A DNA stretch of 64,000 bases from the NCBI RefSeq assembly GCF_026341775.1, contig NZ_JAPEOB010000002.1:2294001-2358000 (forward strand), in the 5' to 3' direction. This document shows positions 9,728 through 54,340 of the stretch, one piece after another. The notes under the pieces were generated by a model, which was given only the letters and a program-made list of their open reading frames with translations, made no database searches and was not told the origin of the DNA. The stretch is from Streptomyces sp. NBC_00654. Lineage in GTDB: Bacteria; Actinomycetota; Actinomycetes; Streptomycetales; Streptomycetaceae. A program made the translations under genes and the position numbers. Each line of letters begins with the position of its first letter. Position 1 is the first letter of the stretch.

Positions 9728-9744
9728 GCTGACGACATGTCAGA
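9728..9744. promoter_or_regulatory. second-motif inverted repeat (TCTGACG-N3-CGTCAGA type)
   Basis: GCTGACGACATGTCAGA matches 12 of 14 fixed positions of the motif that recurs at 16661, 26873, 44411 and 54324, each in a promoter of a lipid/steroid-type gene. It is an inverted repeat CTGAC-N5-GTCAG. The cognate regulator is unknown. Confidence 0.65.
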
Positions 9745-9780
9745 TGAGTGGCCCCGCAGGCCCGGACGCACCTTCCGGCC

Positions 9781-9794
9781 ATGACATTTGTCAT
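9781..9794. promoter_or_regulatory. perfect palindrome upstream of ABC exporter
   Basis: ATGACATTTGTCAT, a 14-bp palindrome with TGACA half-sites, lies 60-73 bp upstream of the ABC ATPase start. It resembles operators of LuxR-type response regulators that control ABC-2 exporters, but no such regulator is adjacent, so this is inference. Confidence 0.5.
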
Positions 9795-9853
9795 CGCGGA
9801 GCCCGTACACGCGGCTCTGCCGCGGACCCCGTGCCCTGCGTAGCGTCGTGGCC

Positions 9854-10933
9854 ATGAGGAAGACAACGGGGACAGCGGCCGGGACAGCGGCCGGGACAGC
9901 GGCCGGGACAGCGGCCGGAACGGCGGCGGGGACAGCACCGGGGCCGGCGGAAGGGACAGCGGTGGCGGGGCCCGCGGTGGTCTTCACCGGGACGGTCAAG
10001 ACGTTCGGCAGGGCGGACCGGGCGGTACGGGCCGTCGACGGCGTCGACCTGGAGATCGGGCGCGGTGAGACGGTGGCGCTGCTCGGCCGCAACGGGGCGG
10101 GCAAGTCGACCACCATCAGCCTGCTGCTCGGTCTGAACGACCCGGACTCCGGCACCGTACGGCTCCTGGGCCGCTCCCCCGACGAGGCGGTGCGCGCCGG
10201 TCTGGTGGGCGCGATGCTCCAGGACGGGCGGCCCATCCCCCGGGTGACGGTCCGCGAACTGGTCCGCTTCATCGCCTCCACCTACCCGCGCCCGATGCCG
10301 GTCGAGGACGCGCTCGCTCTCGCGGGTGTCACCTCGTACGCGGACCGGCGCGTCGACAAGCTCTCCGGCGGCCAGATCCAGCGGGTCCGCTTCGCCGTCG
10401 CGCTGGCGGGCAATCCGGAACTCGTCGTCCTGGACGAGCCGACCGCCGCCCTGGACGTGGAGGCCCGGCGCGCGTTCTGGCAGTCGATGCGGTCCTTCGC
10501 CGGACGCGGCAACACCGTTCTGTTCTCCACGCACTATCTGGAGGAGGCCGACGAGAACGCCGACCGGATCGTCGTCATCGACCGGGGCCGGATCGTCGCG
10601 GACGGCAGCGGTGACCGGATCCGGCGCTCGGCCGGCGGGAACCTCGTCTCCTTCGACCTGGCGGGAACCCCGTTCGACCCGGCGGGAAACCCGGCGGACG
10701 GCCTGGAGCTGCTGCCGGGTGTGGTCGGTGCCGAGGTGCGCGGCCCGCGGGCGCACCTTCGGACGGACGACTCCGACGCGACCGTCGTGGAGCTGGCCAG
10801 GATCGGTGCCGTCCGTGGCCTGACCGTGTCCCGGGCGACGCTGGAGGACGCCTTCCTGGCCCTGACCGCGCCCGCCGAATCCCGCCTTCCCGTCGCTTCC
10901 CACCCCGCCGGCGCCTCCGAGGAGACCGTGTGA
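9854..10933 (+). CDS. ABC-2 exporter ATP-binding protein
   Basis: DrrA/CcmA-type ATPase of about 359 residues that would power drug or lipid export with the coupled permease. Walker A GRNGAGKSTT, Q-loop region GAMLQDGRP, signature LSGGQIQRVRFA, Walker B LVVLDEPTAALD and switch His in FSTHYLEEADE. The chosen start (MRKTTGTAAGTAAG) puts a run of Gly-Thr-Ala-Ala repeats at residues 6-28, encoded by a 12-bp tandem repeat; this tail is probably disordered and may vary between strains. A later start that skips it cannot be excluded, although no internal ATG/GTG with a clear ribosome site is apparent before the ATPase fold. Divergent from the MaoC operon. Substrate unknown. Confidence 0.9.
   Translation: MRKTTGTAAGTAAGTAAGTAAGTAAGTAPGPAEGTAVAGPAVVFTGTVKTFGRADRAVRAVDGVDLEIGRGETVALLGRNGAGKSTTISLLLGLNDPDSGTVRLLGRSPDEAVRAGLVGAMLQDGRPIPRVTVRELVRFIASTYPRPMPVEDALALAGVTSYADRRVDKLSGGQIQRVRFAVALAGNPELVVLDEPTAALDVEARRAFWQSMRSFAGRGNTVLFSTHYLEEADENADRIVVIDRGRIVADGSGDRIRRSAGGNLVSFDLAGTPFDPAGNPADGLELLPGVVGAEVRGPRAHLRTDDSDATVVELARIGAVRGLTVSRATLEDAFLALTAPAESRLPVASHPAGASEETV
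9869..9940 (+). repeat. 12-bp tandem repeat coding for Gly-Thr-Ala-Ala
   Basis: Four perfect copies of GGGACAGCGGCC (9869-9916) followed by degenerate copies, within the N-terminus of the ABC ATPase gene. Unit length is a multiple of three, so copy-number change would keep the frame. Confidence 0.85.
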
Positions 10934-11655
10934 TGCTGCCCTACATCGTGCTCGAAATCCGCCGGACCCTGCGCGACAGCGTCTTCCTGATCTTCGGAAC
11001 GGGGATGCCCGTGATGATGTATCTGCTCTTCACCAACCTGGGGGACGGCGGGGAGTACGCCGACTGGAAGGCCGCGTCGATGGTCGGCATGGCGGCGTAC
11101 GGGGCGCTCGGCTCCGCCATGGCCATCGGTACCGGGATCGCCTCCGACAAGTCCCTCGGCTGGCTCCAGCAGTTGCGGATCACCCCGCTCGACCCGACCC
11201 GGGCCGTCGTGGGCCGGGCGGTCAGCGGCTCGGTGACCGTACTGCCGACCATCGTGGCGGTCCTGCTGGCCGGAGCCCTGGTCAACGGGGTGCGGCTGGC
11301 GGCCTGGCAGTGGATCGCGCTGGTGCTGCTGCTGTGGATCGGGGCACTGCCGTTCACCCTGCTCGGCATCGGCAACGGCTACCGGCTCACTCCGCAGGGC
11401 ACCGGAGTGGTCAATGTGGCGTGCCTGATGGGCTTCGCGGTCGTCGGCGGGCTGTGGTTCCCGCTCGGGGCGTTCCCCGCGTGGCTGCGTTCCGTCGGCG
11501 AGTACACCCCGGCCCACGGCTTCGCCGACCTCGGCTGGTCGGCCGTCGCGGGGCACGCGCCGGGCGCCGGGTCCGTCGCCGTACTCGCCGGGTGGCTGCT
11601 GCTCTTCGGCGGATACGCGGTGGTCTCGTACCGCCGCTCCGCGAGAACGGTGTGA
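10933..11655 (+). CDS. ABC-2 type permease
   Basis: About 240-residue integral membrane protein with six predicted transmembrane segments (for example around VFLIFGTGMPVMMYLLF, VLPTIVAVLLAGALV, IALVLLLWIGALPFTLLG and a final SVAVLAGWLLLFGGYAVVSYRR). It is the membrane partner of the preceding ATPase; the ATG at 10933 overlaps the ATPase stop by one base (an in-frame GTG sits at 10930), so the pair is translationally coupled. The family exports drugs, lipids or antibiotics; the cargo cannot be told. The gene ends 29 bp before the convergent MFS gene. Confidence 0.88.
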   Translation: MLPYIVLEIRRTLRDSVFLIFGTGMPVMMYLLFTNLGDGGEYADWKAASMVGMAAYGALGSAMAIGTGIASDKSLGWLQQLRITPLDPTRAVVGRAVSGSVTVLPTIVAVLLAGALVNGVRLAAWQWIALVLLLWIGALPFTLLGIGNGYRLTPQGTGVVNVACLMGFAVVGGLWFPLGAFPAWLRSVGEYTPAHGFADLGWSAVAGHAPGAGSVAVLAGWLLLFGGYAVVSYRRSARTV

Positions 11656-11684
11656 CGGGCCCGCACCGGCCCCGGCGCGCCCCG

Positions 11685-52844: not shown

Positions 52845-54023
52845 CTACAGCCGCTGGATGATCGTGCCCGTCGCCAGCGCGCCGCCCGCGCACATCGTGA
52901 TCAGCGCGAACTCCTTGTCCCGGCGCTCCAGTTCGTGCAGGGCCGTGGTGATCAGCCGGGCCCCGGTGGCGCCGACCGGGTGGCCGAGGGCTATCGCTCC
53001 CCCGTTGACGTTGACCTTCTCCAGCCCGTCGAGGTCCCGGTCGAACTCCTGCGCCCAGCTCAGCACCACCGAGGCGAACGCCTCGTTGATCTCGACGAGG
53101 TCGATGTCCTTGAGCGACATCCCCGCCTTGCCCAGCACCGCGCGGGTCGCGTCGATGGGTCCGTCGAGATGGAAGTGCGGGTCGGAACCCACCAGCGCCT
53201 GTGCGACGATCCGGGCCCGCGGCTTGAGCTTGAGGGCCCGCGCCATCCGCTTGGAGGCCCACATGATGGCGCAGGCCCCGTCCGATATCTGTGAGGAGTT
53301 GCCCGCCGTGTGGATGGCGGTCGGCATGACCGCCTTGAGCCCGCCGAGCCCCTCCAGCGTGGTGTCCCGCAGCCCTTCGTCACGGTCGACGAGGCGCCAC
53401 ATGCCCTGACCGGCCGCCTGCTCCTCCTCGGTGGTCGGCACCTGGACGGCGTACGTCTCGCGTTTGAAGCGCTCCTCGGCCCAGGCGGCGGCGGCCCGTT
53501 CCTGCGAGAGCAGCCCGAACGCGTCGACCTTCTCCCGGGTCAGGCCGCGCTTGCGGGCGATGCGCTCGGCGGCCTCGAACTGATTGGGCAGGTCGATGTT
53601 CCACTCGTCCGGCCACGGCTTTCCCGGGCCGTGCTTGGAGCCACTGCCCAGCGGTACGCGCGACATCGCCTCCACACCGCAGCTGATGCCGACATCGATG
53701 ACCCCGGCCGCGACCATGTTCGCGACCATGTGGGAGGCCTGCTGCGAGGAACCGCACTGACAGTCCACCGTGGTGGCGGCGGTCTCGTACGGGAACCCCA
53801 CGGCCAGCCAGGCGTTGCGGGCCGGATTCATGGACTGCTCACCGGCATGGGTGACCGTGCCGCCGACGATCTGTTCGACGCAGTCGGCCTGAATGCCGGT
53901 GCGGCCGAGTAGTTCTCGGTAGGTCTCGCCCAGCAGATAGGCGGGATGCAGATTGGCGAGCGCCCCCTGGCGCTTGCCGATGGGGGTGCGTACGGCTTCG
54001 ACGATGACGGGTTCCGCGGCCAT
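52845..54023 (-). CDS. 3-ketoacyl-CoA thiolase (FadA5-like)
   Basis: A 392-residue type-II thiolase. Nucleophile Cys about 90 in [16 protein letters not shown], catalytic His in [20 protein letters not shown], acid/base Cys in [18 protein letters not shown], and [11 protein letters not shown] with the Asn. The full pattern ([60 protein letters not shown]) is, from memory, very close to M. tuberculosis FadA5, which cleaves steroid side-chain 3-keto-CoA esters. It is divergent from the CYP125-like gene with a KstR-like box 54-73 bp upstream of its ATG, the same arrangement as fadA5-cyp125 in mycobacteria. GAGGA precedes ATG 54023. Confidence 0.9.
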
Positions 54024-54076
54024 GAGCTCGTCCTCTCCTCGCACTTCCGCTGGGGCGTCCCGGCACCCACGGAAGG

Positions 54077-54096
54077 AACTAGTACGCGTTCTAGTT
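54077..54096. promoter_or_regulatory. KstR-like operator before FadA5-like thiolase
   Basis: AACTAGTACGCGTTCTAGTT is a 20-bp near-perfect palindrome (one mismatched pair). It fits TNNAACNNGTTNNA at 7 of 8 fixed positions and matches the longer mycobacterial form AACTAGAACGTGTTCTAGTT at 18 of 20 bases. Confidence 0.75.
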
Positions 54097-54294
54097 CTGC
54101 AAGCAGTCTTATGACGCTTACCCCCGGTACGCAAGGGGCGCGCACGCACCTTTCGCGTACGCCGCACGCACCTCACGCGCGCCCCACTTGCCGCACAACC
54201 CCGCCACGACTCCTCCGCGCCCCCGATTACGCCCCCGACCACACCCCTCCGCGCCATCAGGGGAAACAGATCCGGCCAACCCCCTTGCCACTTG

Positions 54295-54309
54295 TAGAAC
54301 TCGTTACTA
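54295..54309. promoter_or_regulatory. near-match KstR operator before CYP125-like gene
   Basis: TAGAACTCGTTACTA resembles TNNAACNNGTTNNA with a one-base insertion or last-base mismatch (7 of 8 fixed positions). It lies 67-81 bp upstream of the P450 ATG. Confidence 0.55.
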
Positions 54310-54323
54310 CCTTTCGGGCAACT

Positions 54324-54340
54324 TCTGATGGGTCGTCAGA
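54324..54340. promoter_or_regulatory. second-motif inverted repeat before CYP125-like gene
   Basis: TCTGATGGGTCGTCAGA matches 13 of 14 fixed positions of the motif and ends 35 bp before the P450 ATG, where a bound protein would overlap the promoter. Confidence 0.7.

Follow-up and report, generated by a model that had tools for sequence, protein, structure and literature searches.

A conserved palindromic operator in Streptomyces and Frankia relatives, and a PF19352 TetR protein as its probable regulator alongside KstR

The 64,000-nucleotide stretch analysed here (the window) covers positions 2294001-2358000 of contig C2 of Streptomyces sp. NBC_00654 (G000, a 9.6 Mb genome) and carries five copies of the palindrome TCTGACG-N3-CGTCAGA. 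This palindrome is a real conserved switch in Streptomyces and in relatives of Frankia, and it is very probably the operator of a single-copy TetR protein of family PF19352 that controls steroid-breakdown genes alongside KstR. The conclusion is built on computed results: the motif, its placement at promoters, its conservation, its co-occurrence with the TetR gene, and the sites that stand at that gene in Frankia relatives and in Frankiales-type metagenome-assembled genomes (MAGs). The literature consulted names KstR and KstR2 as the chief repressors of actinobacterial sterol breakdown, with KstR3 as a recent addition. The finding most likely adds a further steroid-catabolism regulator of the TetR kind, with an operator unlike those of KstR and KstR2. 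Throughout, gene starts are those predicted by our own script and the control is the reversed pattern; expectations for the window at up to two mismatches and at up to one come from 200 shuffles.

A pattern search of the window recovered all five repeats at the positions given in the original prediction, each with one or two mismatches. The first (9728-9744, two mismatches) is centred 164 bp before a MaoC-type dehydratase gene (8718-9572, minus strand) and 226 bp before an ATP-binding cassette (ABC) gene starting at 9962 on the plus strand. The second (16661-16677, two mismatches) lies between the gene of a fused acyl-CoA dehydrogenase (14372-16603, minus strand), which adjoins a lipid-transfer thiolase gene, and a major facilitator superfamily gene (16808, plus strand). 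The third (26873-26889, one mismatch) is centred 27 bp before the gene of a luciferase-like monooxygenase (LLM) F420-dependent oxidoreductase (26908-27918, plus strand), whose match to TIGR03559 (442 bits, cut-off 335) bears out the Rv3520c type proposed for it. The fourth (44411-44427, two mismatches) separates an aldehyde dehydrogenase gene (42886-44346, minus strand) from a metallo-beta-lactamase (MBL) hydrolase gene (44639, plus strand), and the fifth (54324-54340, one mismatch) is centred 44 bp before the gene of a CYP125-type cytochrome P450, a steroid C26-monooxygenase (54376-55629, plus strand; 516 bits to CYP125 chains). KstR-type boxes were called with the KstR operator consensus TNNAAC-N2-GTTNNA. 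As predicted, they accompany four of the repeats: TAGAACGCGTTCTA (9669-9682) and TAGAACACGTTCCA (16646-16659, directly adjoining its repeat) have no mismatch to this consensus, and TGGAACAAGTTCTC (44462-44475) and TAGAACTCGTTACT (54295-54308) have one. The distances between centres are 60.5, 16.5, 49.5 and 30.5 bp, respectively, and no such box lies near 26873. At up to two mismatches the window holds 5 sites, where the shuffles give 0.35 on average and never more than 3, and at up to one mismatch 2 sites against 0.025 expected.

The excess extends to the whole genome, with 77 sites against 11 for the control at up to two mismatches (7-fold) and 15 against 0 at up to one. Two sites are perfect (C1:967375 and C1:998940), and two clusters outside the window, at C1:965-999 kb and C3:766-808 kb, are larger than the window's. 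Each of the 15 sites with at most one mismatch has a predicted start no more than 300 bp downstream. At up to two mismatches we inspected 30 sites, which lie in stretches chosen for holding sites and are not a sample of the 77; 25 share this placement (20 of these outside the window), four are inside genes and one is between convergent genes. The consensus of the 25 promoter sites is A-TCTGACG-N3-CGTCAGA-T, in which TGA and TCA are nearly invariant and the outer A/T reaches 64%; with the flanking A and T the palindrome is about 19 bp long. Many of the inspected promoter sites are centred at about -20 to -60 from the start. The weaker sites C1:2016649 and C1:3608160 may be chance matches. A KstR box (up to one mismatch, within about 160 bp) accompanies 4 of the 25 promoter sites, all four in the window. 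The proposal that the new regulator integrates with KstR is therefore supported in the sense of shared promoters, at part of the sterol genes, but not for the remaining 21 of the 25 sites, which have no KstR box; most inspected new sites are separate.

Conservation was read, gene by gene, from those of eight syntenic relatives that gave a tblastn match. The ABC-gene row of G023 was left out, because its match starts close to the end of the stretch taken and its coordinates are an artefact of that cut. The site is present before the fused dehydrogenase gene in 7 of 7 relatives at up to two mismatches, before the MaoC gene in 4 of 6 (6 of 6 at up to three), before the F420 gene in 7 of 8 and before the P450 gene in all 8. 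Before the aldehyde dehydrogenase gene it is found in 4 of 8 at up to two mismatches and in two more at three, with none in G002 and G021. Four of the window sites are thus kept in most relatives examined, and the one at 44411 in half. In a larger set of 29 CYP125-type promoters, one of which (locus G038) is incomplete, 24 have the new site at up to two mismatches, none has the reversed pattern and 27 have a KstR box; in most rows the centres of the two elements are about 30-32 or 36-38 bp apart. At the F420 oxidoreductase promoter the new motif is present in 17 of 21 Streptomyces, with no KstR box there. All 9 loci of family f3 have a KstR box and no new motif at the corresponding promoter; their F420 proteins show 63-64% identity and could be paralogs. 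In G012 the match begins at residue 69, and the stretch read in that genome is not the true promoter.

The candidate regulator is encoded outside the window, inside the catabolic cluster on C3 (C3:778979-779623, 215 aa). It matches PF19352 (TetR_C_38) with 247 bits against a cut-off of 23.9 and is single-copy in G000; a profile search of 14 control genomes gave no PF19352 match. The matched frame is L021:14012-14626, and the likely start lies 33 bp upstream. Among the best 120 of 3,689 homologs, PF19352 stands beside PF00440, the TetR N-terminal helix-turn-helix, and none of these close homologs bears a specific name. The stretch GTSPATFYQYF is nearly invariant. The predicted structure is nearly all helix, with a predicted local distance difference test (pLDDT) score of 92, and structures of EthR and FadR are among its best matches. 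EthR is the best fold match (template modelling score by query length 0.76-0.79) and also the best PDB profile match (43 bits), but sequence identity is low (17-18%), and the operator and targets of EthR differ from those of the new regulator.

The neighbourhoods of the TetR gene are rich in sites. Twenty loci of other families hold 41 sites at up to two mismatches against 0 controls, 11 of them in Sporichthyaceae, and two loci have none. A scan of named genomes, from which the best 80 loci were taken, covers 67 Streptomyces loci and 13 others (Frankia, Pseudofrankia, Parafrankia, Actinomadura, Yinghuangia, and Frankiales, Frankiaceae and Acidimicrobiales MAGs); some of its loci and of the 20 come from the same assemblies. 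The Streptomyces loci hold 174 sites and the others 38, against 0 controls in each case, and 53 of the 67 and all 13 have at least one site no farther than about 10 kb from the TetR gene. A predicted start follows within 300 bp for 172 of the 174 Streptomyces sites and all 38 others, compared with 547 of 2120 positions picked at random from the Streptomyces loci. The TetR gene has sites of its own in two groups. Of 10 rows from Frankia relatives, among which two assemblies appear twice, 8 have a site that stops 22 bp short of the first possible TetR start and the other two have one that touches it. In 5 of 6 MAGs of family f16 the distance from a site centre to the matched TetR start downstream is 7-44 bp.

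Motif and TetR also occur together across genomes. At up to one mismatch, 25 genomes of the same genus including G000 have 435 sites against 7 controls, and 14 genomes of family f3 have 153 against 7. TetR was found in 39 of 41 relatives and is missing from G025, with no sites, and from G040, with 1 site and a control of 1. A survey of the class gave a TetR match in 45 of 246 genomes. With five Sporichthyaceae set aside, at least 4 sites are present in 29 of 40 genomes with TetR and in 2 of 201 without it (Fisher 4e-26, shared ancestry ignored, the cut of 4 sites having been chosen after the counts were known). The original prediction of a second regulator apart from KstR and KstR2 is thus well supported: the motif is enriched, is kept in front of orthologous genes and is placed upstream of starts, and it co-occurs with a TetR gene that has sites at its own start in Frankia relatives.

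Some further features of the TetR loci may be recorded here. A cluster of TTGTCCACA-type sequences, which resemble DnaA boxes, lies roughly 140-190 bp before the TetR start at 778979 (L064, counted by eye); it is present in six aligned Streptomyces rows, one of which reads TTATCCACA. The TetR homolog at G069:C74:75373-75993 (44% identity) has an in-frame TGA. In G026 an 857-aa gene (L225:14767-17340), whose product we take to be a fused CofGH of F420 synthesis, lies beside LLM-type oxidoreductases and the cluster that holds TetR. In three site-poor Streptomyces (L343, L344 and L349, from G171, G191 and G201) TetR stands beside a conserved kinase-like gene with no site of up to two mismatches nearby, and a presumed flavin-monooxygenase gene is also near TetR in L343 and L349, both names having been given by eye.

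The target genes look like those of steroid or related polycyclic breakdown, and this reading of the substrate is drawn from the gene set as a whole. The window contributes the MaoC-type dehydratase, the fused acyl-CoA dehydrogenase, the aldehyde dehydrogenase/MBL pair, the F420 oxidoreductase and the CYP125-type P450; it also contains a steroid 3-ketoacyl-CoA thiolase gene of the FadA5 type (52845-54023, minus strand; PRK07850, 685 bits, cut-off 515). On C3 a FadD3-family ligase gene (824 bits, cut-off 657) is divergent from a lipid-transfer thiolase gene (580 bits, cut-off 469), 3' of which are genes that we take by eye to be DUF35-like and enoyl-CoA-hydratase-like; further C3 targets are acyl-CoA dehydrogenases, a short-chain dehydrogenase/reductase (SDR) and an AMP ligase. 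The C1 targets include what appear by eye to be LLM-type oxidoreductases, and one apparent operon there contains an SDR whose nearest match is 3alpha,20beta-hydroxysteroid dehydrogenase (222 bits).

We infer binding, repression, an inducer and the logic with KstR as follows. TetR proteins are usually ligand-released repressors. In the most likely mechanism, a TetR dimer would repress promoters by binding the palindrome where it overlaps them or lies just downstream, and the position of the sites near starts fits repression. An intermediate of steroid or other polycyclic breakdown would release the protein; it is probably a CoA thioester, by analogy with the effectors of KstR (steroid acids and CoA thioesters) and KstR2 (HIP-CoA, the thioester of a methylhexahydroindanedione propionate, HIP) as given in PMC5380842 and PMC9782250. 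The regulon would join the C1 cluster (SDR and LLM-type oxidoreductases), the C3 cluster and the sterol genes of the window, and control would be shared with KstR at four promoters of the window, that of the CYP125-type P450 among them.

A number of observations weigh against this assignment. The motif and TetR do not always travel together: G010 has TetR and 1 site only, while G188 (15 sites, 68% complete) and G190 (5 sites) have sites without a TetR match. Eleven TetR-positive genomes are exceptions in the class survey, namely five Streptomyces with 1 site each, G050, G060, G069, G094 and the weak matches G219 and G271; moreover, close genomes are not independent. Among the 67 Streptomyces TetR loci, 14 have no site of up to two mismatches (seven are full 20-kb stretches and four are under 7 kb), and in eight TetR neighbourhoods of site-poor Streptomyces, where TetR is 68-87% identical, such a site occurs only in G127 and G003. 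In 25 Streptomyces loci there is no site of up to three mismatches upstream of the TetR start. Five of the 25 have a 3-mismatch match inside the first TetR codons, and the start codon is overlapped by GCTGACGGCATGACAGG (4 mismatches), identical in six aligned rows and nearly so in a consensus of 21; its conservation is weak evidence, because the sequence is partly coding. A TetR homolog is also present in Sporichthyaceae, which carry 51-177 sites per genome at up to one mismatch (control 0), yet their palindromes are not promoter-specific: in 15 perfect-site loci 7 of 16 sites are upstream of a start, 5 are between convergent 3' ends, 3 are inside genes and 1 is elsewhere. We therefore left the five genomes out of the co-occurrence count and rejected the family as the strongest support. 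The Sporichthyaceae palindrome (L124-L138, L139, L141) is probably a different element, perhaps a 3'-end hairpin. Finally, PMC4810484 reports a steroid pathway to be missing from 55 of the 57 Streptomyces genomes examined there, so much of Streptomyces may use these genes for something else.

Three of these points, the retention of TetR in several Streptomyces with almost no sites, the lack of a good site at its own Streptomyces promoter and the sites without TetR in G188 and G190, would be expected if the palindrome were a real operator bound by another regulator, with the PF19352 TetR as a passenger in the cluster. We consider this unlikely, given the conserved distances of the sites before the TetR gene in Frankia relatives and f16 MAGs and the co-occurrence across the class survey; in addition, TetR stands among sites in Streptomyces, Frankia relatives, Frankiales-type MAGs, Actinomadura and G026, and no other regulator recurs in the inspected gene lists. 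That the palindromes are chance matches or another DNA element such as terminator hairpins is extremely improbable. The window count at up to three mismatches is indeed near chance (6 against 4.24 expected, not significant; window-only statistics at this cut are too weak), and the Sporichthyaceae palindromes often lie between convergent 3' ends or inside genes, but for Streptomyces this explanation is contradicted by the upstream placement at the TetR loci and the conservation of the site at orthologous promoters, next to the genomic excess.

The known sterol regulators were compared in turn. KstR is ruled out as the proposed regulator, since it is a separate gene of the window (32249-32860, plus strand) and its motif differs; that gene product scores 197 bits with NF033703, short of the 280-bit equivalog cut-off, and 140 bits against KstR chains. 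A KstR-type box without mismatches precedes kstR at 32074-32087, and KstR therefore probably controls itself. The two systems are alike in TetR fold (KstR structures 3mnl and 5cw8) and palindromic operator, and CYP125-type promoters carry boxes of both kinds. The KstR2 motif is CAAG-N2-CTTG, and the palindrome is indeed distinct from it, as had been stated at the outset. KstR2 (structures 4w97 and 4w1u) shares the TetR fold, and the promoter of the G000 FadD3-family ligase carries a new site.

It is nevertheless very unlikely that the new regulator is KstR2, or a KstR3-like protein, with an altered site. In its favour, the f16 MAG loci L144, L145 and L148 and G050 have TetR beside an echA20-ipdABC-like cluster, and KstR2 controls HIP genes of the echA20-ipdABC/fadD3 kind in mycobacteria, according to PMC5380842 and PMC9782250. 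We assigned the echA20-ipdABC names from gene order and similarity, the IpdA-like protein having a G000 homolog of 64% identity; against NCBIfam, the hydratase and CoA-transferase genes matched general models only, and an IpdE2 match fell short of its cut-off. The G000 KstR2-type gene, however, is a separate one (C2:1973881-1974489, 197 bits to KstR2 chains) near ipdABC-like genes, and two separate genes in one genome contradict the identity. No new site of up to two mismatches was found in two stretches around the G000 ipd genes. Two PDB searches with the new TetR showed no chain named KstR or KstR2 among the matches listed. Nine genomes of g8 (family f6) point the same way, seven having no PF19352 match and two matching at 24-25 bits, just over the cut-off. 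The KstR3 of Mycolicibacterium neoaurum (HBC operon; Mn_4965), compared here by its published description (PMC10398937), is likewise a TetR; its gene adjoins those of an aldolase and a DUF35 protein that act in sterol side-chain breakdown, and its deletion is reported to alter seven genes. A KstR2 search gave no match in any of the 11 f16 genomes, four of which also have no TetR match and include one that is 68% complete, or in G050 and G060, and was positive in six f20 genomes, G026, G069 and three Streptomyces. Replacement of KstR2 is rejected for Streptomyces, where G000 has a KstR2-type gene elsewhere, and remains a candidate for the Frankiales-type MAGs.

The G000 ipd promoter has a palindrome of its own, CACCTAACAAATGTTTGGTG, at L221:16748-16770 between SDR and echA20-like genes. 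A search of the L221 stretch for ACAAG-N2-CTTGT at up to one mismatch gave no match, and CACCTAACAAATGTTTGGTG is possibly an altered KstR2 operator in Streptomyces.

The view that no regulator had been described for this motif agrees with the open-licence literature, where no account of the motif or of a PF19352 regulator was found among the matches listed; subscription papers lie mostly outside that search. A text search for five exact spellings of the motif was dominated by primer sequences, and none of the spellings is in the ten papers listed out of 12,312 matching any term. A Nocardioides paper reports other new motifs, Lcin1 (TCCCGGT[C/G]ACCGGGA) and Lcin2.

Taken jointly, the results can be read as tracing a steroid regulator whose role shifts between lineages, one that took over the HIP genes from KstR2 in the Frankiales-type MAGs, replaced KstR at the Streptomyces F420 promoter and forms with KstR a two-repressor gate at CYP125. 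We offer this combined reading tentatively and put its chance a little below even. Such a gate, if true, would make the start of sterol breakdown depend on two different intermediates. If the PF19352 TetR is the regulator, F420-type oxidoreductases, a hydroxysteroid-dehydrogenase-like SDR and a CYP125-type P450 would be linked through one further protein and the operator belonging to it, which would explain genes that have no KstR boxes. It would also be of use for engineering Streptomyces and would exemplify how regulators are exchanged while the pathway that they control is conserved.

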